From the NCBI GenBank assembly GCA_020848735.1, contig JADLHO010000080.1, positions 62,001-126,000 on the forward strand: DNA of 64,000 nt, written 5' to 3'. The DNA comes from Planctomycetota bacterium (lineage in GTDB: Bacteria > Planctomycetota > UBA1135 > UBA2386). Positions within the stretch are counted from its first letter, which is position 1. The number at the start of each line of letters is the position of its first letter. The notes under the pieces were generated by a model, which searched no databases, was not told where the DNA came from, and worked only from the letters and a program-made list of their open reading frames with translations. The position numbers and the translations under genes are program-made. Positions 22,849-47,679 of the stretch are shown here, in pieces.

Positions 22849-25800
22849 AGAGCCCGCACGCCCTCTTCGAGATCAGCTGGGAGGTCTGCAACAAGGTCGG
22901 CGGCATCCACACGGTGCTGTCGAGCAAGGCGAAGACCGCCGTGGCACGGTTCGGGGACGACTACGTCGTCGTCGGCCCGTGGCTCCTCTCGGACACCGAC
23001 CGTCGCAACGCATTCGAGCCCGAGCCCGGACACGAGGTCTTCGCGGACGCATGCCGTGCCCTGGGGCTGCCGGTGCAGATCGGTCGCTGGAAGATCCCCG
23101 GTCGACCGCGCTGCATCCTGATCGAGTTCTCCAGCCACTACGCGCAGAAGAACGACATCCTCACCCGCCTCTGGGAGGACTGGCAGGTCGACTCGATCGA
23201 GGGCGGCTGGGACTACGTCGAACCGGTGCTCTTCGGCTGGGCGGCCGGCAAGGTCCTCGAGGAGTACTGGGAACACTACCTCGCGCCCGAGCACCGACGC
23301 GCCGTCGTGCAGGCGCACGAGTGGATGACCGGCTCGGCGCTGCTCTACCTCAAGAAGCGCGTGCCGGCATTGGGCACGGTGTTCACGACGCACGCGACCA
23401 TGCTCGGCCGCGCGCTCTCGTCACTCGGTCACTCGCCCGAGGATGGCCTCGGCGACAAGACGGTCGACGATCTCGCCCGCACGCACGGAGTGCGCGCCAA
23501 ACACTCCCTCGAGGGCGTGTGCGCGCGCGAGGCCGACGTCTTCACGACCGTGAGCGAGCTCACGGCGAAGGAGGCGAAGCTGCTGCACCGCCGCGATGCG
23601 AACCCGGTGCTCCCCAATGGCATCGACCTCGAGGTCCTCGACGAGCTCGCCGGCAATGCCTCGCATCGGACCATGGTGCGGCAGCGGCTGACCGACCTCG
23701 CCCAGCGCTTCCTCGGGACTCCCGACCTCCGCAACGCCGCGTTCGCCTGCATCTCCGGACGCTACGAGTTCCACAACAAGGGCATCGACATCCTGCTCGA
23801 CGCGGCCGCCCGCCTCGAGAAGCGCGAGGGCCGCCCGGTCGTCCTGTGGGTCCTCGTGCCCGCGGGCAACTCGGGGCTGCGCTCCGAGGTCCGGGAACGC
23901 CTGGACGCCAAGGGCCCGCTCCAGGTGCAGGATCCGATCGGCACCTGCACGCACCACCTCTTCGACGAGGACAAGGACCCCGTTCGCAAGCGCGCGATCG
24001 AGCTCGGTCTCACCAATGCCTCGGGGGCGAGGATCAAGCTGATCCACGTCCCGATCTATCTCGGCCCACGCGACGACTTCCTCGGCTTCGAATACGAGGC
24101 GGTCCTCGCGGCGATGGATCTCGGGATCTTCCCCAGCTTCTACGAGCCCTGGGGCTACACGCCGCAGGAGAGCCTCGGCGTCGGGGTCCCGACCATCACC
24201 AGCGACTTCGCGGGCTTCGGGCGCTGGGCCTTGTCGCAGGCGCTCGCCGAAGCCGACGGCGTGACCGTCGTGCGGCGCGCGGGCGCACGCTACGACCAGG
24301 CGATCGAGCGGGTCACGGACGCCATCGCGACCGCGTTGGCGCGCACCGAGTCCGAACACCGGGCGTTGCAGCCGCGCTGCCGCGCCGCCGCGGCGCGGAC
24401 CGCGTGGCACGACCTCTACGAGAACTACGTGACGGCCTATTCGTCGGCCGATCTCGCCGTCGATTCGCGCGCCGCGGCGCGCGTGCCACAGACGCGACGG
24501 CCGAAGTCGCAGGTGGTCGTCGTGCCCGCGAGCACGGCCGCGCCGCGGATCCGCTACTTCGACGTCGCGGCGACCCTGCCCGACGCCCTCCAACCGCTCG
24601 AACGCATCGCCCGCAACTTCTGGTGGTGCTGGGATCCGGAGGCGCCGACGCTCTTCGAGGCCATCTCGCCCCAGGGCTTCGCCGCCGCGGGCCGCAATCC
24701 GCTGCGGTTCCTGCGCCGAGCCTTCCCCGAGGATCTGCGTCAGAAGGCCGACGACGCGAGCTTCGTCGCCCGGGTCGTCGCGGTCGAGCAGCGCTTCGAC
24801 ACCTACCTCGCCGCGCGCCGCGAACGCGTCGAGCTCGGCGGGCCGAACGGCGGGAACCTGACCCGTCACCACCCGGTGGCGTACTTCTGCGCCGAGTTCG
24901 GCATCCACGAGTCCTTCCCGATCTACAGCGGCGGACTCGGCATCCTCGCGGGCGACCACCTGAAGTCGGCCAGCGACCTCGACATCCCGCTCGTCGGCGT
25001 GGGGCTTTTCTACCGCTTCGGCTACCTGAAGCAGCAGCTCACGACCGACGGTCGTCAGCTCGCGCTCGACCGCGAGAACGACCCGGAGCAACTCCCGATG
25101 GAGCTGCTCCGCAATCCCGATGGCTCGCCCCTCGAAGTGCGGGTGCCGATGCCCGGGCGCGACGTCGCATTGCGTGCCTGGCTCGTCAAGGTCGGCCGCG
25201 TCGACCTCTACCTGCTGGATGCGAACACGCCGAGCAACCGGGACGAGGACCGCGACATCACGCGGCACCTCTACGGCGGCGATCACGAGATGCGCATCCG
25301 CCAGCTCATCGCCCTGGGCCGAGGCGGCGTCCGCCTCCTCGGGGAGCTCGGCATCGAGCCCGCGGCCTGGCACATGAACGAGGGCCACGCCGCATTCCTG
25401 ACCCTCGAGCGCGTCGGCCGGCTCGTCCGTCGTGGCGGCCTCACGTTCGAGACCGCGCGTGAGGCGGTGCGGGCGACGACCGCCTTCACGACGCACACCC
25501 CGGTCCCGGCCGGCCACGACCGCTTCGCCGAGGACATCATGCGGCGCTACTTCAGCGACGTGCCGGACTGGGTGGGTGTGCCCTGGGATCGGTTCCTGCG
25601 CTTCGGCCGCGCCGACGCGTCGGGGTCCGACTTCAACATGACCTACCTGGCGCTGACGTTCTCGTCGTTCTGCAACGGAGTGAGCAAGCTCCACGGCATC
25701 GCCTCGCGGGATCTCCTCCACCCGTATTGGCCGAGCCTGCTGCGCGATGAGGTGCCCGTCGAGTCCATCACCAACGGCGTCCACCTCCCGACCTGGACGA

Positions 25801-37607: not shown

Positions 37608-38459
37608 TCAGAGTCCGACGACGGCGACGATCTGCTCGGGCCGCTTGGCGCTGACGACGACACCGCCCGGCCTCTCCTTCGTGATGGCGAACGCGAAGGC
37701 GTCGTGGACGCGCAGCTTCGGATCGATCGGCACGACGAACTCGGGCCCGCTCTCGCCGGGCGCGAGGTCGAAGACGCCGCCGTCGACCGGCGTCGCCGTG
37801 TCCTGGGCGCGGTCGAAGATCCAGAGCTGGTATTGGAAGTCCCGCGGATCGTTCGGGGGCAGACCGCGGATGGTGAGGAAGCCGGCCTGCGCGCGATCGC
37901 TCCAGAGCACTTCGCCTTCGCAGCCCTTCGCCCAGGGCAGGCGACGGCTCTCGGGATGCTCGGCGAGGAAGGCCTCGCGCAGTTCGTGGGCCGGCGCGGC
38001 GGAGGAGGCCGAGCGAGCCCAGCTCACGTAGAGCGCGATCGCCGCGGCACTCGCCGCGATCAACCACGGCAAGGCGAGGGACGCCGCGCGCCGCGGCCGT
38101 GCGACGCCCGGCAGCGGCGGGACGCCAGGGCCGGGCACCGCGGTCCGCGGCGACGCGCTCCGGCGCGGTCCCGCCGCCTTCGCCGCGAACTCGAGCGCGG
38201 AGACGCGGAGCCGCTCGCGCAGACCCGCGGACATCGGCTCCACGCCGTGCAGGGCGAGAGACGCCACGAGGGACGCGCTCACGCGCTCGAAGGCCGCGAG
38301 CTCGCGCGCGACGGCATCCTGATCGTCGACGTCGCGCAGCTCGCGCAGTTCGTGCTCGTCGAGGTTCTCGAGCACCGCTCCCGCGCAGAGTTCGGCGAGA
38401 CGCTCCCGACCCTCGGGCGGAGGCACTGCGGAGCCACGATCCGCGGGCGGGCGGCTCAT
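37608..38459 (-). CDS. RskA-like anti-sigma factor
   Basis: The product is 283 aa. The N-terminal 110 residues form a cytoplasmic helical domain with 'LAELCAGAVLENLDEHELREL', like anti-sigma binding regions. One membrane helix is at about residues 128-145 ('LPWLIAASAAAIALYVS'). The extracytoplasmic part is an anti-sigma-K/RskA-type domain: 'RDFQYQLWIFDR', 'PVDGGVFDLA' and 'AFAFAITKERPGGV'. Its ATG overlaps the stop of the sigma gene, the standard arrangement, so it holds that sigma factor inactive at the membrane. It is not a cupin-type ChrR, although its neighbours are those of a ChrR-like regulon. The inducing signal is unknown. Confidence 0.88.
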   Translation of the reverse strand: MSRPPADRGSAVPPPEGRERLAELCAGAVLENLDEHELRELRDVDDQDAVARELAAFERVSASLVASLALHGVEPMSAGLRERLRVSALEFAAKAAGPRRSASPRTAVPGPGVPPLPGVARPRRAASLALPWLIAASAAAIALYVSWARSASSAAPAHELREAFLAEHPESRRLPWAKGCEGEVLWSDRAQAGFLTIRGLPPNDPRDFQYQLWIFDRAQDTATPVDGGVFDLAPGESGPEFVVPIDPKLRVHDAFAFAITKERPGGVVVSAKRPEQIVAVVGL

Positions 38460-39010
38460 CGCGCACCTCCCTCGTCGACGACGATGCCGAGCGCCTCGCG
38501 GATCCGCATGAGTCCTCGCCGGGCGAGGCTCTTGACGGTGCCGAGCGGCATTCCCGTCTGCTCGCTGATCTGCGTGTGCGTACGTCCCTGCAGCAGCGCG
38601 AGCTCGAGCACCTTCTGCTGCTCGACGCGCAAGGTCTGGAAGGCGTCGTGCACGCGCCGCGACTCGTCGGCGAGTTCGACGCGATCCACGACGGGACGCG
38701 CGGGGACGAGGTCCTGATCCGCAAAGGCCTCCGCCGCGGGGCGTGCGCCCCGTCGGCGGGCGCGGTCGATCAGACGCCGTCGCGCGATGGTGACGATGAA
38801 GGTGCTCTCGGCCGCGATGGTCGCGTCGTAACGCGCCGCGCTCTTCCAGACCTCGAGGAAGATCTCCTGCACCGCGTCCTCCGCGTCGTGCAGGTTCGGC
38901 GAGGAGCGCCGCGCCAACGTCCAGACGAGCTGTCCGTAGCGATCCTGGAAGTCCTGCATCGCGGCGGGATCACCGGCGGCGATGCGATGGAGAACGCTGG
39001 ACTCGGTCAT
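38456..39010 (-). CDS. ECF sigma factor
   Basis: The product is 184 aa from ATG 39010. Region 2 is 'LHDAEDAVQEIFLEVWKSAA' and region 4 is 'VEQQKVLELALLQGRTHTQI' followed by 'SEQTGMPLGTVKSLARRGLM', the helix-turn-helix that reads the -35 element. This is the usual size and order for extracytoplasmic-function sigma factors. It is coupled (ATGA) to the anti-sigma gene and stands 100 bases after the DUF2878 gene on the same strand. Seven genes from the desaturase to the anti-sigma factor thus point one way, and the lipid genes upstream are likely targets. That regulatory link is inference from order and from known regulons. Confidence 0.93.
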   Translation of the reverse strand: MTESSVLHRIAAGDPAAMQDFQDRYGQLVWTLARRSSPNLHDAEDAVQEIFLEVWKSAARYDATIAAESTFIVTIARRRLIDRARRRGARPAAEAFADQDLVPARPVVDRVELADESRRVHDAFQTLRVEQQKVLELALLQGRTHTQISEQTGMPLGTVKSLARRGLMRIREALGIVVDEGGAR

Positions 39011-39110
39011 CGGCGCCTTCACGCGGGCACGGCATTCGAGCACCGCGGCCCGCCGCCCGCAACGCGACGGATTCCGCCGCGTGAGATCCACGCTGGTCGT
39101 CGCCATCAGC

Positions 39111-39653
39111 TCACCACGCGGCGATCCTCGCCGCGTTCTGCCGCGCGGCGACGGCGCACGGCGTGTAGACGGCCCAGAGCGCGGCGATGGCCGCGAGCGC
39201 CAGCGGACGATCCGCGCCGATCCGCAGCGCGCCCAGCCGCTCTCCCGCGACGACCGCGAGCGGCCCCCCGAGGGCACCGAACGCGATCGACCACACGCTG
39301 CGGCCGCGCAACCAGCGCAGGCTCGTGTCGAGCAGGATCGGGAAGAGCAACCACAGCGCGGCATACCAGAGCGGCAGGCCGAGCACGGGGCGGGACCCGT
39401 CGTCGAAGCAGACGGTGCCGAGCGCGACGAGCCCGGCATCGGCGAGGAGCCCCGACACGCCGAGGACGCCGATCGCGAGCGCTTCGCGGCGCCTCTCCCC
39501 GCGTCGCGTCAGCAGGCCGAGGTGGAGTGCGCGGACCACGAGTGCCGCGCCCGGACCGAGGAACGGCTGCCCGGCCCGGCCCGCGAACACGCACGCGAAC
39601 CAGGCGAGCTGGAAGAGCGCGAAGGCGGACAGGCTGCGCAGACTCGCCGACAT
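39111..39653 (-). CDS. DUF2878-type membrane protein
   Basis: The product is 180 aa with about six hydrophobic segments. 'LWLLFPILLDTSLRWLRG' followed by 'AFGALGGPLAVVAGERLGAL' matches what I remember of DUF2878, a small membrane family often encoded with cyclopropane synthase, DUF1365 and DUF1295 genes. It begins 4 bases after the stop of the cyclopropane synthase gene. Function is unknown; the company suggests a membrane-lipid step. Confidence 0.72.
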   Translation of the reverse strand: MSASLRSLSAFALFQLAWFACVFAGRAGQPFLGPGAALVVRALHLGLLTRRGERRREALAIGVLGVSGLLADAGLVALGTVCFDDGSRPVLGLPLWYAALWLLFPILLDTSLRWLRGRSVWSIAFGALGGPLAVVAGERLGALRIGADRPLALAAIAALWAVYTPCAVAARQNAARIAAW

Positions 39654-39657
39654 GGCG

Positions 39658-40995
39658 TCACGCGACGGGCAGCGGGAGACGCGCGCTCAACGCCGCGCGC
39701 GTGGACAGGATCGGACTCGGCCGCGCATCCGGCCGCGCGAACACGTACTGCCCGAGGCCGAGGAAGCGCTCCGCGAAGCCCGCCTCGCAGTAGCGGAGGT
39801 AGTACTCCCAGAGCCGGAGGAAGCGCTCCGAGCGGCCGCTCGCGCGCAGGGCCTCACGGTTCGCGAGGAAGCGTTCGCGCCAGAGCCGCAGGGTGCGCGC
39901 GTAATGCACGCCGAACTCCTCGAAGTGCACCAGCCGGAGATCGGAGCCCGCGGTCGCCGCGTCGAGCAACGCCGTCGTCGAGGGGATGAAGCTGCCGGGG
40001 AAGACCCAGCGCTTGATGAAGTCGACCTCCCGCAGGGCCCGCGCATAGTGCTGGTCGGCGATCGTGATCGCCTGCATCGCCAGCACGCCGTGCGGTTCGA
40101 GCAGCTCCGCGCAGCGCCCCAGGAAGCGCGGCAGGAAGGGCGCGCCGACCGCTTCGACCATCTCGCAGTGCACCAGCTTGTCGAAGCGGCCACGCAGATC
40201 GCGGTAGTCGTCGCGACGGAGGTCGATGCGGTCGCCCAGGCCGGCCGCGGCGATGCGCGCCCGTGCACCCTCGTATTGCTCCTGGGAGATCGTCGTCGTG
40301 GTCACGTGGCAGCCGTAGACGCGGGCCGCGTGCATCGCCAGGGCGCCCCAGCCGGTGCCGATCTCGAGCAGTCGGTCACCGGGTTGGAGATCGAGCTTCA
40401 AGCAGAGCCGATCGATCTTCGCGATCGAGGCCTCGGCCATCGTCGCGTCCTCGCGCTCGAAGACACCGCAGGAGTACGTGAGCGTGGGGTCGAGGAAGCT
40501 CTCGAAGAACTCGTTGCCGAGGTCGTAGTGCTCCGCGATGTTGCGCCGGCTGCCGCGCCGGGTGTTCGCGCGCAGGGCGTGGCCGAGACGCAGCAGCGGC
40601 GCGACGAGCCGCGTGAGGCCGCTGTCCAGACCGTCGAGCACTGCGCGATTGCGCAGCATCACGCGGACCAGCCGGGTGAGATCGTCGCAATCCCAGGCAC
40701 CGTCGACGAACGACTCCGCGGCCCCGAGCGAGCCGCGGGCCACGAGGGCGGTCCAGAACGTCGGCGACGCGATGCGCAGCACGACCGCGTCGTCCGCGGA
40801 GCACGCCGCGCCGAACTCGAAGCGTTCGCCGTCGACGGCATCCTCGAACGTCAGGCGACCGTTCCGCAGCGAGCGCAGCCTCGCGACCGCGAGGCGCCGC
40901 GCCCAGGCCGCACGGAACGGCAACGGGCGGATCGGCGGGAGAGCGCGGAGGGCGGTCGGTTCGGGTGCCCGCTGCGCGTCGCGTGGAAGGGTCAT
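39658..40995 (-). CDS. cfa: Cyclopropane-fatty-acyl-phospholipid synthase
   Basis: The product is 445 aa. ATG 40995 is preferred over longer frames, which add unrelated Arg-rich sequence. The N-terminal domain has 'LVARGSLGAAESFVDGAWDC', then the family signature 'IAEHYDLGNEFFESFLDP' and 'TYSCGVFERED'. SAM motif I is 'LLEIGTGWGALAMHAA', and 'HCEMVEAVG' and 'QAITI' follow. The enzyme adds a methylene bridge from S-adenosylmethionine to the double bond of membrane phospholipid acyl chains. The double bond could be made by the desaturase three genes upstream. A second, shorter relative is at 44992. It lies 20 bases after DUF1365 and 4 bases before DUF2878. Confidence 0.93.
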   Translation of the reverse strand: MTLPRDAQRAPEPTALRALPPIRPLPFRAAWARRLAVARLRSLRNGRLTFEDAVDGERFEFGAACSADDAVVLRIASPTFWTALVARGSLGAAESFVDGAWDCDDLTRLVRVMLRNRAVLDGLDSGLTRLVAPLLRLGHALRANTRRGSRRNIAEHYDLGNEFFESFLDPTLTYSCGVFEREDATMAEASIAKIDRLCLKLDLQPGDRLLEIGTGWGALAMHAARVYGCHVTTTTISQEQYEGARARIAAAGLGDRIDLRRDDYRDLRGRFDKLVHCEMVEAVGAPFLPRFLGRCAELLEPHGVLAMQAITIADQHYARALREVDFIKRWVFPGSFIPSTTALLDAATAGSDLRLVHFEEFGVHYARTLRLWRERFLANREALRASGRSERFLRLWEYYLRYCEAGFAERFLGLGQYVFARPDARPSPILSTRAALSARLPLPVA

Positions 40996-41015
40996 GGCCG
41001 CAGGTTTCGCGCGGC

Positions 41016-41783
41016 TCAGGCCGGCGGATGCACGGCGCGTCCCGGGTGCGGATGGAACGGGACGCCGCGCAGCTTGAGGCGCAGCGCCTGCCAATAGATG
41101 GCGAGCAGGACCAGGCCGGTGATGAAGGGGCGACGCAGCACGGCAGCGGCGAGCGCCCAGCCGCCCAGTTCTCGCCGCTCGAGCTGGAGGACGGCGTCGA
41201 ACCAGGGCTCGCCGTCCTGGAGGTTCTGCATCCGGATGCCCAGGTCCCGGCCCGGGACGTCGAGTCGCCAGACGTAGTCCTGCGCCATCCGCATGAAGGG
41301 CGAGACGTGGAAGCGCTTCGCGAAGCGCGCCACCGCCACGCCATCCTCGCCGACGCGCGCATCCACGACGTAGGCGTGGCGTTCACCCCACGGCGTGTTG
41401 GTGATCTCCGCGAGCACCGCTTCGAGCGTCGTGCCGTCGGCGGCGAAGCAGTAGTAGAAGCTCACCGGATTGAAGGCGAGACCGAGGCAGCGCAGGTGCG
41501 AGAGCATGCGCACGGGGCCCGCCGGTCGCCGGCCGAGCTCCGCCTCCACGCGCGCGAGCACGGCCTCGCGCAGCGGCACCGCGGGATCCCCGAAGTAGTC
41601 GGAGCGGTGCCAGGCGAAGAGGTTCCGTCGCCCGACCGACCAGAACCAACGCCCGCGGAACACCGCGTGGAGCTCGTCGAGGTCGAGATAGAGGAGGTGC
41701 AGGCGATAGCGGAAGGCGTGGCGTCGCGGTCGATGCCGAGCGTGACGCACGACCCCCACGTAGAGCGCGCTCGCCCGACTCAT
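41016..41783 (-). CDS. DUF1365 family protein
   Basis: The product is 255 aa. ATG 41783 overlaps the FAD enzyme's stop codon. 'VRHARHRPRRHAFRYRLHLL' at the start, 'CLGLAFNPVSFYYCF' in the middle and 'KRFHVSPFMRMAQDYVWRL' are the DUF1365 signatures. The family regularly sits with an FAD-dependent amine-oxidase-like enzyme and a cyclopropane synthase, as here. It is thought to take part in modification of unsaturated fatty acids; its chemistry is not established. Confidence 0.92.
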   Translation of the reverse strand: MSRASALYVGVVRHARHRPRRHAFRYRLHLLYLDLDELHAVFRGRWFWSVGRRNLFAWHRSDYFGDPAVPLREAVLARVEAELGRRPAGPVRMLSHLRCLGLAFNPVSFYYCFAADGTTLEAVLAEITNTPWGERHAYVVDARVGEDGVAVARFAKRFHVSPFMRMAQDYVWRLDVPGRDLGIRMQNLQDGEPWFDAVLQLERRELGGWALAAAVLRRPFITGLVLLAIYWQALRLKLRGVPFHPHPGRAVHPPA

Positions 41784-43066
41784 GCGAAGTCCAGGCCGAA
41801 CTGGCGCGCGACGGTGACGGCGGAGCGGCAGCCGTCCTCGTGGAAGCCGTAGCCCCAATAGGCCCCGCAGTAGTACGTGCGCCTCACCCCGCTGATCTCG
41901 GCATGGCGCGCCTGCGCGGCCACACCGTCCGGCGTGTAGAGGGGGTGGTGGTAGACCATGCGCCGGAGCACGCGCGCGGGGTCGATCGCGGCGTCGCGAT
42001 TGAGCGTGACCAGATAACGCTCCTCGGCCTCGAGCGACTGCAGGACGTTCATGTCGTAGGTCAGCGTCGCGCCGGACGTCGCCCGCTCGCCGTCGAGGTC
42101 CAGGTGATAGTTCCACGCCGCGCGGGCGCGCGGCCGCTTCGGCAGGAGCCGCGTGTCCGTGTGCAGCAGCGCGGTGTTGGCCTGGTAGGGGATCGCCCCC
42201 AGCACCTCGCGTTCGGCCGCGCTCGGATCGACGAGCAGCTGGAGCGCCTGGTCGGAGTGGCAGGCCAGGACCACGGAGTCGAAGCGTTCGGGCGCCGCGC
42301 CGCGCACCGTCAGCTCCACGTGACCGGAGTGCCGCGCGACGGCGACGACCGGCGAGGCGCGGCGGATGCGCTCCGCGAAGGGCGCCACGAGCTTCTCGAG
42401 GTAGCTGCGCGAACCGCCGCGGATCACCCGCCATTGCGGACGGTCGTCGACGGTCAGGAACCCGTGGTTGTGGAAGAAGCGCGCGAAGTACACCGCGGGG
42501 AAGCCGAACATGCGGCCCGGCGCGGTCGACCAGACGGCCGCCCCCATCGGCACGAGGTAATGCCGCACGAAGCGTTCCGAGTAGCGGCCGCGCACGAGGA
42601 AGGCACCGAGCGTGATCGACGCGTCGACCCCGGCGGTCCCGACCTGCTCGAGCAAGGCGAGCGCCTCGAGGTTGAAGCGCAGGATCTCCTTCAGCATCCC
42701 CCAGAACGACGGACGGAGGAGGTTGCGACGCTGGGCGAACAGCGTGTTCAGCGAGGTGCCGCAGTACTCGAAGCCGTTCGTCTCGTCGCGAACGGAGAAG
42801 CTCATCGAACTCGGTTGGGTCGCGACGCCGAGCCGCTCGAGCAGACGCGTGAAGATCGGATAGGTGCGCTCGGTGTAGACGATGAAGCCGGTGTCGATCG
42901 CCAGCCGTCGGCCGCCGGCGTCGACGTCGACCGTGTGCGTGTGGCCCCCCACGCGCCCCTCCGCCTCGAACACGGTCCCCTCGTGGTGCGTCGCGAGCAG
43001 ATGCGCGGCGAGGCAGCCCGCGATCCCGCTGCCGACCACGGCGACGCGTTGACGGGTCGCACTCAC
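41780..43066 (-). CDS. FAD-dependent amine oxidase-like oxidoreductase
   Basis: The product is 428 aa from a GTG at 43066 that overlaps the desaturase stop codon. The N-terminal FAD site is 'VAVVGSGIAGCLAAHLL' (GxGxxG), with 'EAEGRVGGHTHTVDV' as the second-strand acid and GG region. The middle has 'NGFEYCGTSLNTLFAQR' and the C-terminal flavin contact is 'YYCGAYWGYGFHEDG'. It belongs to the flavin amine oxidase superfamily, in the branch always found beside DUF1365. In alpha-proteobacteria, related genes act on cyclopropane-type or furan fatty acids. It probably oxidises a lipid acyl chain at the membrane; the exact reaction here is not known. Confidence 0.92.
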   Translation of the reverse strand: MSATRQRVAVVGSGIAGCLAAHLLATHHEGTVFEAEGRVGGHTHTVDVDAGGRRLAIDTGFIVYTERTYPIFTRLLERLGVATQPSSMSFSVRDETNGFEYCGTSLNTLFAQRRNLLRPSFWGMLKEILRFNLEALALLEQVGTAGVDASITLGAFLVRGRYSERFVRHYLVPMGAAVWSTAPGRMFGFPAVYFARFFHNHGFLTVDDRPQWRVIRGGSRSYLEKLVAPFAERIRRASPVVAVARHSGHVELTVRGAAPERFDSVVLACHSDQALQLLVDPSAAEREVLGAIPYQANTALLHTDTRLLPKRPRARAAWNYHLDLDGERATSGATLTYDMNVLQSLEAEERYLVTLNRDAAIDPARVLRRMVYHHPLYTPDGVAAQARHAEISGVRRTYYCGAYWGYGFHEDGCRSAVTVARQFGLDFA

Positions 43067-44034
43067 GACCGCCCTCGCCTCGGCGTGCGTCGACCCTCGA
43101 GCACATGCCCCGGCACGGGCGCGAGGTCGTGGACGATGCCGAGCTTCGCCAGGACGAGCAGTCCGTACCAGGTGAGGTCGAGCTCCCACCAACGGAAGCC
43201 CTGGCGCGCGGCCACGGGATAGAAGTGGTGGTTGTTGTGCCAGCCTTCGCCGAAGGTCAGGAGCGCGAGCAGGAAGCTGTTGCGGCTCGTGTCGGGCGTG
43301 GGATAGCGACGCGACCCGAAGAGATGACCGAGGCTGTTGATCGACGAGGTCCCGTGGAACAGCAGCGTGGTCGAGACGAAGAAGCCCCACACCAGGAGCT
43401 GCGGCCCCGAGGTCGCGAGCGACGGCGCGACCGCGGCCAGCAGCTCGCCGAGCGCATAGGTCCCCCCGGCGAGGGCGAGGGGCGCGATCACGTCGAAGCG
43501 GTCGAGGAAGCGCAGCTCGGGGAAGCGGGCGAAGTCCGGGATCTGCTGCAGGTCCGTCGCGAAGTTGCGGCGCGTCGTGAACCAGAGCACGTGGCTCCAC
43601 AGCACGCCCCGGTCGTGCGGTGAGTGCGCGTCGCGCCCGGTGTCGGCGTGCTTGTGGTGGCGGCGATGGTGCGCCGCCCACCACAGCGGTCCACGCTGGC
43701 CGGCGGCGTTGCCGAGCGCGGCGAAGAGGAACTGCACGAACCGCGACGTGCGGAAGGCGCGGTGCCCGAAGTAGCGGTGGTAGAAGGCGGTGATCGCGAA
43801 CATCCGCACCGCATAGGCGAGCGCACACGCGACCAGCGCGGTCGTGCTCACTCCCACCACGAAGACGAACGCGCACCCGACGTGCAGCGCGAGGAAGGGC
43901 ACGAGCCGCAGCCAGTCGATCGCGTCCTGGTCGGCGCCCTCGTTGCGACGCTGCGCAGCCCGCGCGTCGAACCAGGACGCCAGCGTCGCCAGGCCGCGCA
44001 CGAGGGGATGGGAAGAGGACGGTTTCGCGATCAT
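43063..44034 (-). CDS. Delta-9-type fatty acid desaturase (membrane di-iron)
   Basis: The product is 323 aa from ATG 44034. Three His boxes are present in order: HRYFGH, then [13 protein letters not shown], then GEGWHNNHH, with two pairs of membrane helices between. This is the stearoyl-CoA desaturase-like layout of bacterial and eukaryotic delta-9 enzymes. It introduces a cis double bond into a saturated acyl chain, using O2 and an electron donor. It is the first gene of the minus-strand group and would supply the unsaturated chains that cyclopropane synthases need. It is divergent from DUF1295 over a 166-base gap that likely holds both promoters. Confidence 0.94.
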
Positions 44035-44200
44035 CGGGCGGGCGCTCGGAGTCGCCGCGGGGCGCCGCCCGGTTCTGGTCCGAAGGGGCAGGACCGGGTG
44101 ACGAGCGCGGACTTCGCAGGCCGGACCCGCGCGGATGCACCGGCACACCGCGTCGATCCGATCGCATCCGCGTGTGCCCGCGCTGCGAACTCCGCGCCCG

Positions 44201-44995
44201 ATGCCCGACTCCGTCCCGACGCCTGCCGTGGCCCTCGCGGCGACCGCGCTCGGCTTCGCGCTCCTGCACCTGCACGCGACGCGGCGCCGGAACGCGACCT
44301 GGGTCGACTTCGGCTGGGCCGTCGCGATCGGCGCGCTGGCGGTCGCCCATGCGATCACGGGCGACGGCGCGCCGGTGCAGCGCGCCTTCGCGGGACTGCT
44401 CGGGGGAACCTGGGGCTTCCGCCTCGCAGGGCATCTGCTCGTCGACCGGATCCTCGGCCGACCGGAGGACGCTCGCTACGTGCAGCTCCGGGCCTGGTTC
44501 GGACGCCACGCCACCTGGCACTTCGCCTGGTTCTTCCAGGCGCAGGCGCTGCTCGCCGTGCTCCTCGCCTGGCCCTTCGCCCTCCTCGCGGACCACGCGG
44601 CACCGGCGCTGGCGCCGGTCCAGATCGCCGGCGGCGTGCTCTTCGCCGTCGCGCTCTTCGGCGAGTCGTACTCCGACCACACCCTCGCGCGCTGGCGCGC
44701 CGATCCCTCACGCCGGGGTCGTACCTGTCGCATCGGTCCGTGGCGTTTCTCGCGCCACCCGAACTACTTCTGCGAATGGCTGATCTGGGTCGCCTTCGCG
44801 CTCGCGGCGACCCCGGCACCGGGCGGCGGCTGGGCCTGGCTCGCACCGCTCGCGATGTACCTGCTCATCGTGCACGTCACCGGCATCCCGCACACCGAGG
44901 CCCAGGCGCTGCGCTCCCGGGGCGACGAGTACCGCGACTACCAGCGCAGCACGAACGCCTTCTTCCCCGGTCCCCCGCGCGCGACCTTGCGATGA
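44201..44995 (+). CDS. DUF1295 family membrane protein (steroid 5-alpha-reductase-like fold)
   Basis: The product is 264 aa from ATG 44201. About six to seven membrane helices are seen. The C-terminal signature '[20 protein letters not shown]' and '[18 protein letters not shown]' is that of DUF1295 and of steroid reductases/isoprenylcysteine methyltransferases, where it binds a nucleotide cofactor. The substrate in bacteria is unclear; the location suggests an acyl lipid. The next gene overlaps by ATGA. Confidence 0.9.
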
Positions 44996-46098
44996 GCGTC
45001 ACGAAACTCCTCGACAGCGGACTCCTCCCCGACTGGCTCATCCGCATCGGCATCCGCCGCCTGCTGAACGCCCGCCTGCGCGAGCAGGGCGCCGGTGGCT
45101 TCGAAGCCGCGCACCGCGGCACGATGGCCTGGCTCCGCACGCTGCGCACGAGCGGCATCGCCCTCGAGACCGCGGCCGCCAATGCGCAGCACTACGAGGT
45201 GCCGGCCGAGCTCTACCGGCTCACGCTGGGGCCGCGACTCAAGTACTCCTCGGGGCTCTGGAGCGACGGCGTGCAGGACCTCGCGGGCGCCGAACTCGCG
45301 ATGCTCGAGCTCTATGCGCAACGCGCCCGCCTCGTCGACGGGCAGGACGTGCTCGACCTCGGTTGCGGCTGGGGCTCGTTCGCACTGTGGGCGGCCGAAC
45401 GGTTCCCCCGCAGCCGCATCCTGGGCGTCTCGAACTCGGCGAGCCAACGCGGCTTCGTCCTCGCGCGCGCGCGGGAACGCGGACTCACGAACCTCGAGGT
45501 GGTGACCTGCGACGCGAACGTCTTCGACACGCCGCGGCGCTTCGACCGCATCGTCTCCGTGGAGATGCTCGAGCACGTCCGCAACTACCAGGCGATGTTC
45601 GAGCGCATGGCTGGGTGGCTCCGCGACGACGGCCTCGCCTTCGTGCACGTCTTCGTGCACCGCGAGTTCGCCTATCCCTTCGAGACGCAGGGCGAGGACG
45701 ACTGGCTCGGGCGCTGGTTCTTCACCGGGGGCCAGATGCCGTCGGACGCGCTCTTCCTCTACTTCCAGGACCATCTCGCGATCGAGGACCACTGGCGGGT
45801 CCGCGGCACGCATTACGGGAAGACGGCCGAGGCCTGGCTCCGCAACTTCGACGCGCACCGCGAGGAGCTGCAACCGGTCCTCGAACGGACCTATGGTCCG
45901 GAGGCCGCTCGCATGGCGCGCTACTGGCGCGTCTTCTTCATGGCCTGCGCGGAGCTCTGGAATCACCGGCGCGGCGAGAGCTGGTTCGTCTCGCACTATC
46001 TCTTCCGCAAGCGGGTGACCGCCCGCGCGCGTCCGACCCCGACCGATCCATGCGACAGCTCGAAGCGACCGTCCTCGACCTCGATGTCTTCGGTGTGA
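44992..46098 (+). CDS. Cyclopropane-synthase-like SAM methyltransferase
   Basis: The product is 368 aa. ATG 44992 lies within the DUF1295 stop codon. The family signature appears as '[18 protein letters not shown]', then 'KYSSGLW'. SAM motif I is '[20 protein letters not shown]' and '[11 protein letters not shown]' follows, with the C-terminal '[15 protein letters not shown]'. It is shorter than the gene at 39658 because it lacks the usual N-terminal domain, and is closer to the SAM methyltransferase branch that modifies unsaturated chains. The last 16 codons overlap the start of the thiol-redox gene in another frame; this tail is low-complexity and may not matter for function. Confidence 0.88.
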
Positions 46099-46646
46099 AT
46101 CTCCGCGGCGGCAGCGGCCCCGCCGGACCGGCACGGCTGCGCGACCAGTGCGGGCCGGGCCCGACGCTCTTCGCGTTCCTCCGCCACCTCGGTTGACCCC
46201 TGTGCCGGGAGATGGTCGCCGCGTTGCGCGCCTGCCGGACTTCGCAGCCGCGATACCCGTCGGTGGTCCTCTTCACGACGGCCTCGGTCGAGGCCACCCG
46301 CAGCTTCCTCGCCGAACGTTGGCCCGGCGCGATCGCGATCGCGGATCCCGAGGGCGTCGTGCAGACCGCGTGCACGGCCGCTTCGGCACCGCGACCCGCG
46401 CTCTTCGACGTCCGTGTCCTGGGCGCATTGTTCCGCGCGCTGCGACGCGGTCACGGCCTCGGCCGCGTGCAGGGCAGCGTGACGGCGCGACCCGGGCTCC
46501 TGCTGATCGAGGGCGAGAGCGTGCGCTGGGAACACCCGTTCGAACACATCGGCGACCATCCGGACTTCGCCGCGATCCCCGCGCTCGCCGGCCTCGTGCC
46601 CGACTCGGGCCAGGGACCCGGACTGGACAGCGAGCCACCCCGATGA
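46050..46646 (+). CDS. Predicted selenoprotein, SelL/PRXL2-like thiol-redox protein with UxxC (in-frame TGA at 46194-46196)
   Basis: Read through one TGA, the frame gives 198 residues from ATG 46050. Residue 49 is the TGA (46194-46196), in '[16 protein letters not shown]', where the PRXL2/AhpC-TSA_2 family has R-x-x-G-C-x-x-C-R-E. The first redox cysteine is therefore replaced by TGA, and Cys52 is the partner. The frame stays open for another 150 codons with a thioredoxin-fold ending ('[20 protein letters not shown]', then '[13 protein letters not shown]', then '[14 protein letters not shown]'). A SECIS-like hairpin lies at 46205-46238. Without readthrough the product would be a useless 48 residues. 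Related proteins reduce peroxide or disulfides. It overlaps the lipid methyltransferase gene and precedes the B12-binding gene by 16 bases. The Sec machinery is not in this window. Confidence 0.8.
46205..46238 (+). promoter_or_regulatory. Candidate bacterial SECIS element
   Basis: A stem can be drawn starting 8 bases after the TGA: ccgg pairs with ccgg, then, after a small internal loop, gg and tcgc-region bases pair with gcg and gcc. The six-base apical loop cgcgtt (46220-46225) begins 23 bases after the TGA and has G as its second base. Known bacterial SECIS hairpins have a small loop with a G in the first two positions about 16-37 bases after the TGA. Drawn by hand, not by energy calculation. 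Confidence 0.55.
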
Positions 46647-46662
46647 TGCGATCCGCACGCTG

Positions 46663-47679
46663 ATGGACCAGAGCGGTTCCGTTCTCGCCGATTGGCTCGG
46701 CCAGTCCCGGCGCGCCCTCGCGCAGGGCGCGGCGTCGCGGAGCTCGGCGGCGAGCGAGCCGGCCTTGCACGACGGTCTGCTCCAGCACCTCGGGCAGGCC
46801 CTGGCCGCCGGTCGCGTCGAGATCTTCGTCCTCCACACACGTTGGCTGGCGGAGACCCTCGCGGCGCGCCACGGGTCGCGGGTCGCGGTGCGCGAGCTCC
46901 TGCTCGCCCTGCGGGAGGAGCTCGAACATGCGGTCCCCGCCGCGGCCTGGCCGCGCGTCCGCGCGGCCTTCACGGCCGCGCTCGACGGACTCGAGACGGT
47001 GCAGCCACCCGTCGACTCGCTGCTGCGGGACGGCGCCCCACGCGTGGAGCTCGCCCGGCGCTACCTGCTCGCCGTCCTCGAGGCGCGCCTCGACGACGCG
47101 GTGCGGCTCGTGCTCGATGCCGCGCAGGGCGGCGCCTCGATCGAGGAGCTCATCGCCGAGGTCGTCATCCCCGTTCAGCAGGAGCTCGGGCGCATGTGGC
47201 AATGCGGCGAGGCCAGCGTCGCCGAGGAGCACCTCGCCTCGCAGGTCGCGGCGCGTCTGCTCACGCTGCTCGATGCGCAGGCCACCCGGGCGCCGCGCCG
47301 TGAGCGGCGCATCCTCGTCGCCTGCGTCGAAGGCAACGACCACGACTTCGGGGCACGGCTCCTGGCGTCGGCCTTCGAACGACAGGGCTGGCAGGCCATC
47401 CTGCTCGGCGCCAACACACCCGCTGCGGAACTCGCGACCGCGGTCGAGCAGTTCCAGCCCGACCTCATCGCGCTCTCCGCAGGCACCGCACTCCACGTGC
47501 GGGCGACCGCGGCCACCGTGGCGGCGATCCGGGCGCGCGCGCCCGGGCGCACGCCGATCCTCGTCGGCGGTGGCGCCTTCGCCGCGGTCCAGGGACTCTG
47601 GCGCGACGTGGGCGCCGACGGCACCGCAGCCGACGCCGCGAGCGCACTCGCGTGGGCGCGCGAATCGTCCGCGCGCTGA
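46663..47679 (+). CDS. Cobalamin (B12)-binding protein without a DNA-binding domain
   Basis: The product is 338 aa from ATG 46663, 16 bases after the selenoprotein gene. Residues about 120-205 form the four-helix cap (B12-binding_2 type) with 'ELGRMWQCGEASVAEEHLAS', whose W and EEH are the light-sensor (CarH/LitR) cap motif. Residues about 215-335 are a Rossmann-type B12 domain: 'ILVACVEGNDHDFGARLLAS' with His227 as the cobalt ligand (N-x-H-x-x-G, where D or E usually stands first), then 'GWQAILLGANTP', 'ALSAGTALH' and 'PILVGGGAF'. The first 115 residues are helical and unassigned. It lacks the MerR helix-turn-helix of CarH, so it may sense light or cobalamin and act through a partner such as the sigma/anti-sigma pair. 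That is inference. Confidence 0.85.
   Translation: MDQSGSVLADWLGQSRRALAQGAASRSSAASEPALHDGLLQHLGQALAAGRVEIFVLHTRWLAETLAARHGSRVAVRELLLALREELEHAVPAAAWPRVRAAFTAALDGLETVQPPVDSLLRDGAPRVELARRYLLAVLEARLDDAVRLVLDAAQGGASIEELIAEVVIPVQQELGRMWQCGEASVAEEHLASQVAARLLTLLDAQATRAPRRERRILVACVEGNDHDFGARLLASAFERQGWQAILLGANTPAAELATAVEQFQPDLIALSAGTALHVRATAATVAAIRARAPGRTPILVGGGAFAAVQGLWRDVGADGTAADAASALAWARESSAR

Follow-up and report, generated by a model that had tools for sequence, protein, structure and literature searches.

A gene from a Planctomycetota bacterium very probably encodes a selenocysteine (Sec)-containing SelL/PRXL2-like protein, with Sec predicted to be inserted at an internal UGA codon (positions 46194-46196). 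It lies in what we call the window, the whole 64,000-nucleotide stretch of contig JADLHO010000080.1 that was analysed. The product is almost certainly a selenium-containing antioxidant-type enzyme, because the TGA falls exactly at the position where its relatives carry their catalytic Cys or Sec. The gene and the codon are located as follows:

46050..46646, forward strand: SelL/PRXL2-like selenoprotein gene, 198 aa when read through, Sec49-x-x-Cys52
46194..46196, forward strand: internal TGA, predicted selenocysteine codon of residue 49, based on the homologue column and the Sec machinery in the genome

An in-frame TGA within a continuous coding frame

The frame starts with an ATG and ends with a TGA at 46644-46646, and its 5' end overlaps the 3' end of the upstream CMAS-family methyltransferase gene by 49 bases. 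Re-reading the coordinates confirmed that the frame contains only one internal TGA and that this codon opens the UxxC motif, as reported in the first-pass annotation. The same annotation proposed a 198-residue product with Sec49 and Cys52; the readthrough sequence contains U49 and C52 among 198 residues, and the Sec/Cys column of the homologues and the Sec machinery described below support this proposal. Its count of 150 codons after the TGA is corrected here to 149. The GC content at third positions is 0.83 ahead of the TGA and 0.87 past it, near the 0.91-0.92 of neighbouring genes and unlike the overlapping +1 frame, which has a non-coding look (0.585). Both halves of the frame are therefore coding.

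Standard calling rules recover after the TGA only a 144-aa fragment (46212-46646) starting at an ATG six codons past the internal TGA, in line with the earlier prediction that simple gene callers would err at this locus. This ATG would be compatible with the UGA being a true stop that separates a short N-terminal peptide from an independent downstream protein. However, such a break would split the catalytic motif, leaving the downstream product without the invariant R45 and residue 49, and Cys-form homologues run unbroken across residue 49. We rejected termination with internal restart on these grounds and assign it a negligible probability. Decoding of the UGA as Trp or another residue, through an altered code or a suppressor, is similarly far-fetched: we found no support for it, TGA acts as an ordinary stop here in that it terminates the preceding CMAS gene (46096-46098), a bona fide tRNA-Sec with a UCA anticodon is present, and Trp was never seen in column 49 of the homologues. 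This explanation was likewise rejected.

Selenocysteine machinery in the same genome

The window's own genome spans 6.44 Mb in 277 contigs, with completeness and contamination estimated by a tool at 89.3% and 6.9%. The first-pass annotation had named selA, selB, selD and a tRNA-Sec as the genes to look for, and all four are present: selA (477 bits) with selD directly behind it (342 bits), selB (307 bits, in an ORF of 649 aa) and a tRNA-Sec with the anticodon UCA. Contamination was assessed on stretches sampled around selA/selD, tRNA-Sec and selB. Compared to the window, their contigs have matching GC content (0.70-0.72) and tetranucleotide composition (r 0.992-0.993), and selA is present in 97 of 101 relatives, which makes contamination an improbable source of the Sec genes.

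Two further internal TGA codons were seen in this genome. The selD gene is itself a selenoprotein gene, with a TGA at the catalytic position in the motif WSCAAGU (locus L019, contig C163, approximately 23214-24143). A SelB-like/EF-Tu-like match elsewhere (L003, C41:4520-5701) has one TGA inside the matched stretch.

Sec or Cys at residue 49 in all homologues read

Matches to the family were found in 40 of 101 genomes (the window's own and its relatives), mostly with one internal TGA. A scan of genome contigs for homologues returned three distant loci and no more, and the one same-genus genome that was searched had no detectable copy. Among 32 relatives, the DNA at column 49 reads TGA in 27 and Cys in 5. 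Together with 30 phylum-level loci, one of which repeats a gene already read, and the window gene, 62 genes were compared: 35 have TGA, 27 a Cys codon and none any other codon. The expectation that homologues should have Cys or Sec at this residue thus holds for 62 of the 62 read by DNA, and the coincidence of TGA with this very column in 35 of them, with Cys in the rest, excludes chance. Three residues past the U/C of the family motif, FLRHxG[U/C]xFCRE, stands Cys (+3), which is replaced by Thr in six Sec forms. The 55-member alignment has two invariant columns, R45 and residue 49.

These data bear on whether the gene is a pseudogene, or whether the TGA is a sequencing error over an ancestral Cys codon (TGC or TGT). 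The draft state of the assembly, with its estimated incompleteness and contamination, would suit either explanation, as would the long branch of the window protein and its scores under the family cut-offs. Against this, TGA occurs in the identical column of 34 other homologues from independent assemblies, so that sequencing error is an inadequate explanation; the downstream frame retains coding composition and is still 35-47% identical to the closest homologues, and the Sec machinery is in the genome. We rejected both variants given the recurrent TGA column, the preserved composition and the machinery, and consider them very improbable.

Sec is conserved in the SelL-like family, with at least four Sec/Cys switches within the sampled homologues: the tree has five, four of which are forced by well-supported branches, and a single Sec clade is rejected. 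The window protein falls into a supported all-Sec group with two homologues (L022 and L023), on an end branch of 0.95. Among phylum genomes with a good family match, selA is present in 31 of 33 TGA-form genomes versus 9 of 35 Cys-only genomes (Fisher p 4e-9, ignoring kinship and with two borderline selA matches counted as present). The phylum search did not find selA in G302 (67% complete) and G347 (91%), both of which contain TGA-form SelL-like genes.

A divergent SelL/PRXL2-like protein

By sequence and predicted structure, the window protein is a divergent SelL/PRXL2-like protein, because it matches NCBIfam NF040769 (SelL_rel_redox), its relatives match PF13911, its AlphaFold model has the corresponding fold, and PRXL2B is the top match. 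The SelL/PRXL2, AhpC-TSA_2 assignment of the first-pass annotation is upheld by these data. The NF040769 match is near-full (profile positions 16-171 of 173, E 6e-26) and includes the family motif. It scores 91 bits and misses the curated cut-off of 120 bits, so that by this model the protein ranks as a divergent relative and not as a formal member; the window motif is U-P-L-C rather than the usual U-x-F-C, and the central AFGxxRG region is altered. Each of the 55 aligned members has an NF040769 match, and the window protein shares a tree with members above the cut-off. PF13911 (AhpC-TSA_2) is matched by 54 of the 55 (best 3e-19); a Pfam search of the window protein gave no match to PF13911 even at E 1, and none of its own.

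The AlphaFold model (pLDDT 92, pTM 0.87) predicts a thioredoxin-like PRXL2 fold, in which the [U/C]xxC motif is located between a core strand (39-43) and a helix (50-65). Human prostamide/PGF synthase PRXL2B (9us9, 9usa) is the top PDB match by both sequence profile (E 5e-15) and fold, where 9usa ranks first. The alignment places the human CxxC motif (C44/C47; 9usa is the C44S/C47S mutant) within the segment R-x-x-G-C-x-x-C-R. The window protein differs from PRXL2B in that Sec replaces the first Cys, and the fold alignment has 16% identity with a query TM-score of 0.65. Members of the AhpE, PrxQ and ResA/TlpA families are also among the fold and sequence matches.

Fish selenoprotein L (SelL) has the motif UxxU. 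It is a PRXL2-like protein with Sec in its redox motif, as in the window protein, which differs in having UxxC and in its predicted use of a bacterial SECIS/SelB system rather than a eukaryotic one. A bacterial AhpC-TSA_2/cd02970 selenoprotein with a UxxS motif has already been catalogued (PMC9312934, PMC13188914); it belongs to the same Pfam/CDD family and has Sec at the same position, but carries Ser where the window protein and most relatives have Cys and six have Thr. The UxxC and UxxT forms are not catalogued under the AhpC-TSA_2 family in these two papers, and a literature search for 'SelL-related redox' proteins found no paper. The SelL-related NCBIfam family and the UxxS selenoprotein are thus already known; what is new is the linkage to a gene cluster described below. 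Automatic annotation cuts or misses such genes, and Sec use is therefore underestimated in large uncultured lineages.

A candidate SECIS element downstream of the UGA

The first-pass annotation expected a SECIS hairpin close behind the TGA. The Sec forms as a set provide a signal for this, whereas the window gene's own hairpin is marginal compared to shuffled sequences. The candidate is:

46214..46232, forward strand: candidate bacterial SECIS apical hairpin GGUCGCCGC-GUU-GCGCGCC, loop at 46223-46225, with GUU in the AGUU register of the relatives

This hairpin is weak, having two bulges and an isolated energy of -5.3 kcal/mol, and the RNA after the TGA of the window gene folds no better than shuffles in single-sequence and comparative tests. 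The published bSECIS model asks for a hairpin 16-37 nt past the UGA with an energy of at most -7.5 kcal/mol and a G in the first two loop positions (PMC13188914). The window gene has a hairpin satisfying this model (-11.9 kcal/mol), of a kind that is common in synonymous shuffles. The model is passed by 33 of 36 Sec forms versus 25.5 expected from synonymous shuffles, and by 13 of 27 Cys forms versus 10.7. Past codon 49, the RNA of Sec forms folds more stably, with a mean z of -0.63 versus -0.10 for Cys forms (p 0.012). The share of Sec forms with a hairpin in a fixed register (loop AGUU or GUU, 26-29 nt past the UGA) is 37%; Cys forms reach 7% and synonymous shuffles 12%, with 0 of 200 shuffles attaining the Sec-form level. 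TTG serves as the Leu codon beneath the loop in 13 of 29 Sec forms, compared to 10% gene-wide. Such counts are inflated by the relatedness of the sequences. Other clades seem to use other hairpin registers, with centres at 67 and 71. We regard the downstream hairpin as a putative SECIS element.

A neighbourhood of putative lipid-modifying genes

In the DUF1295-CMAS-SelL unit, the SelL-like gene holds third place; an operon that runs from a desaturase to an anti-sigma gene diverges from this unit. The first-pass annotation had missed these neighbours, which we add here:

37608..38459, reverse strand: RskA-type anti-sigma factor
38456..39010, reverse strand: ECF sigma factor
39111..39653, reverse strand: DUF2878 protein
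39658..40995, reverse strand: second CMAS-family methyltransferase, UfaM-like
41016..41780, reverse strand: DUF1365 protein, UfaO family by domain (PMC7380195)
41780..43063, reverse strand: FAD amine-oxidase-fold protein, likely a UfaD-like fatty acyl desaturase, role by analogy (PMC7380195)
43063..44034, reverse strand: fatty acid desaturase (PF00487), in the divergent operon
44135..44995, forward strand: membrane protein with DUF1295, resembling steroid 5-alpha-reductase; opens the unit
44989..46098, forward strand: CMAS-family (cyclopropane/methyl fatty acid synthase-like) SAM methyltransferase, adjoining the SelL-like gene on its 5' side
46663..47679, forward strand: cobalamin-binding protein whose sensor domains resemble CarH (WQCGEASVAEEH, Wx9EH type)

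The best NCBIfam match of the B12 protein (46663-47679) is CarH over the sensor part, below that model's cut-off, and no MerR DNA-binding domain was found in it. Its WQCGEASVAEEH motif of the Wx9EH type presumably denotes a CarH-like B12 sensor. Perhaps the protein serves as a stand-alone, B12-based light sensor whose target is the sigma/anti-sigma pair close by.

The methyltransferase, FAD desaturase and DUF1365 genes that occur together in 37608-47679 were identified by their Pfam domains. UfaD is presumably of the same FAD amine-oxidase type as the 41780-43063 protein. In Rhodobacter sphaeroides, UfaM, UfaD and UfaO, the last of which carries DUF1365, make furan fatty acids (PMC7380195), and the RpoE-ChrR singlet-oxygen response houses the ufa genes (PMC7074977). 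The window resembles this system in combining a CMAS methyltransferase, an FAD desaturase-type protein, a DUF1365 oxygenase-type protein and an ECF sigma/anti-sigma pair (PMC7380195, PMC7074977). It differs in adding the selenoprotein, DUF1295, a PF00487 desaturase and the CarH-like B12 protein, and in that its anti-sigma factor is assigned by Pfam to the RskA type. An analogous regulon of Shewanella contains glutathione peroxidase and cfa (PMC4336711), which provides a precedent for a peroxidase in such a regulon. We regard 37608-47679 as a putative cluster for modified (furan/methyl) fatty acids and photo-oxidative stress, which probably shields membrane lipids against light-generated oxygen damage.

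Recurrent linkage to the putative lipid cluster

Of 56 neighbourhoods sampled, 8 have lipid-cluster genes close to the SelL-like gene (G015, G014, G007, G008, G094 and G141, and more loosely, at 6-10 kb, G034 and G192). By search tables and codon reading, all eight are Sec forms. Approximately 0.3 linked cases would be expected by chance (Poisson p ~3e-9, ignoring ancestry), assuming one cluster per genome, random positions and, by our own estimate, ~30 kb in 5 Mb. The order DUF1295-CMAS-SelL is common to the window and G141, which belongs to another family of the phylum, and CMAS-SelL is kept in L089, L091 and L136; in G008 and G094, the SelL-like gene occupies different places. Linkage with varied gene orders is seen across families of the phylum (L089, L090, L094, L099, L136), and we found no report of it in the literature searched. 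The remaining 48 neighbourhoods show no lipid-cluster genes close by, although several of the contigs are short.

We also considered the B12-binding, sigma and anti-sigma genes as universal partners of SelL-like genes and rejected this, as beyond the window the trio occurs only in L099. The cluster of G094 also has sigma, anti-sigma and B12 genes. A sigma match lies 7.5 kb from the SelL-like gene in L094, and the remaining sigma, anti-sigma and B12 matches are 23-30% identical.

Proposed mechanism and role

We propose that SelB carrying Sec-tRNA(Sec), guided by the hairpin just 3' of the codon, would place Sec at UGA 46194-46196, giving a 198-residue PRXL2/SelL-like peroxiredoxin of the cytosolic type. 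Sec49 would attack and reduce an O-O bond, Cys52 would resolve it as an Se-S bond, and a thioredoxin-like donor would re-reduce that bond to restore the enzyme. The substrate may be an oxidized lipid (hydroperoxides or endoperoxides) that forms under singlet-oxygen or photo-oxidative stress in the vicinity of modified fatty acids, probably of the methylated or furan type. Oxidized membrane lipids appear to be the most reasonable substrate because the gene is embedded among lipid-modifying genes that are apparently regulated by light or oxidants. We infer the redox chemistry, the lipid substrate and the stress regulation from this context, and our best reading is a selenoperoxidase or endoperoxide reductase for oxidized membrane lipids. 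The lipid role is tentative, and we rate its chances slightly short of even. Since 48 of the 56 neighbourhoods show no cluster close by, it may suit only a subset of these proteins, or none.

Evenly balanced, in our judgement, is the possibility that the protein does contain Sec but acts as a generic reductase (thiol-disulfide or hydroperoxide), the neighbourhood reflecting inherited co-location; here only the role is in dispute. It would be in keeping with the location of most homologues away from the lipid cluster and with the matches to AhpE, PrxQ and ResA/TlpA. By contrast, the linkage is above chance, with varied gene orders and phylum families, and the nearest solved relative by both sequence and fold is titled a prostamide/PGF synthase in the PDB. 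Human PRXL2B reduces prostaglandin endoperoxides. A more specific form of the lipid reading is a dedicated Sec-containing PRXL2-type lipid (endo)peroxide reductase, parallel to PRXL2B, in light- or singlet-oxygen-regulated membrane lipid remodelling by UfaD/UfaO/CMAS-like enzymes, the ECF sigma/anti-sigma pair and the CarH-like B12 sensor; we consider this rather unlikely.

Linkage to the putative furan/methyl fatty acid cluster offers the orphan SelL-like family a concrete substrate class. If the lipid reading is true, selenium use in bacteria would be connected to the protection of membranes from light-generated oxidants, and PRXL2B-type chemistry would gain a simple bacterial model.

Six homologues (L026, L028, L029, L030, L031 and L049) retain Sec and have Thr in place of the second Cys. 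The UxxT form arises by two changes on the tree, where a single clade accounts for five of them; having lost the resolving Cys, these relatives would be one-Sec peroxidases.
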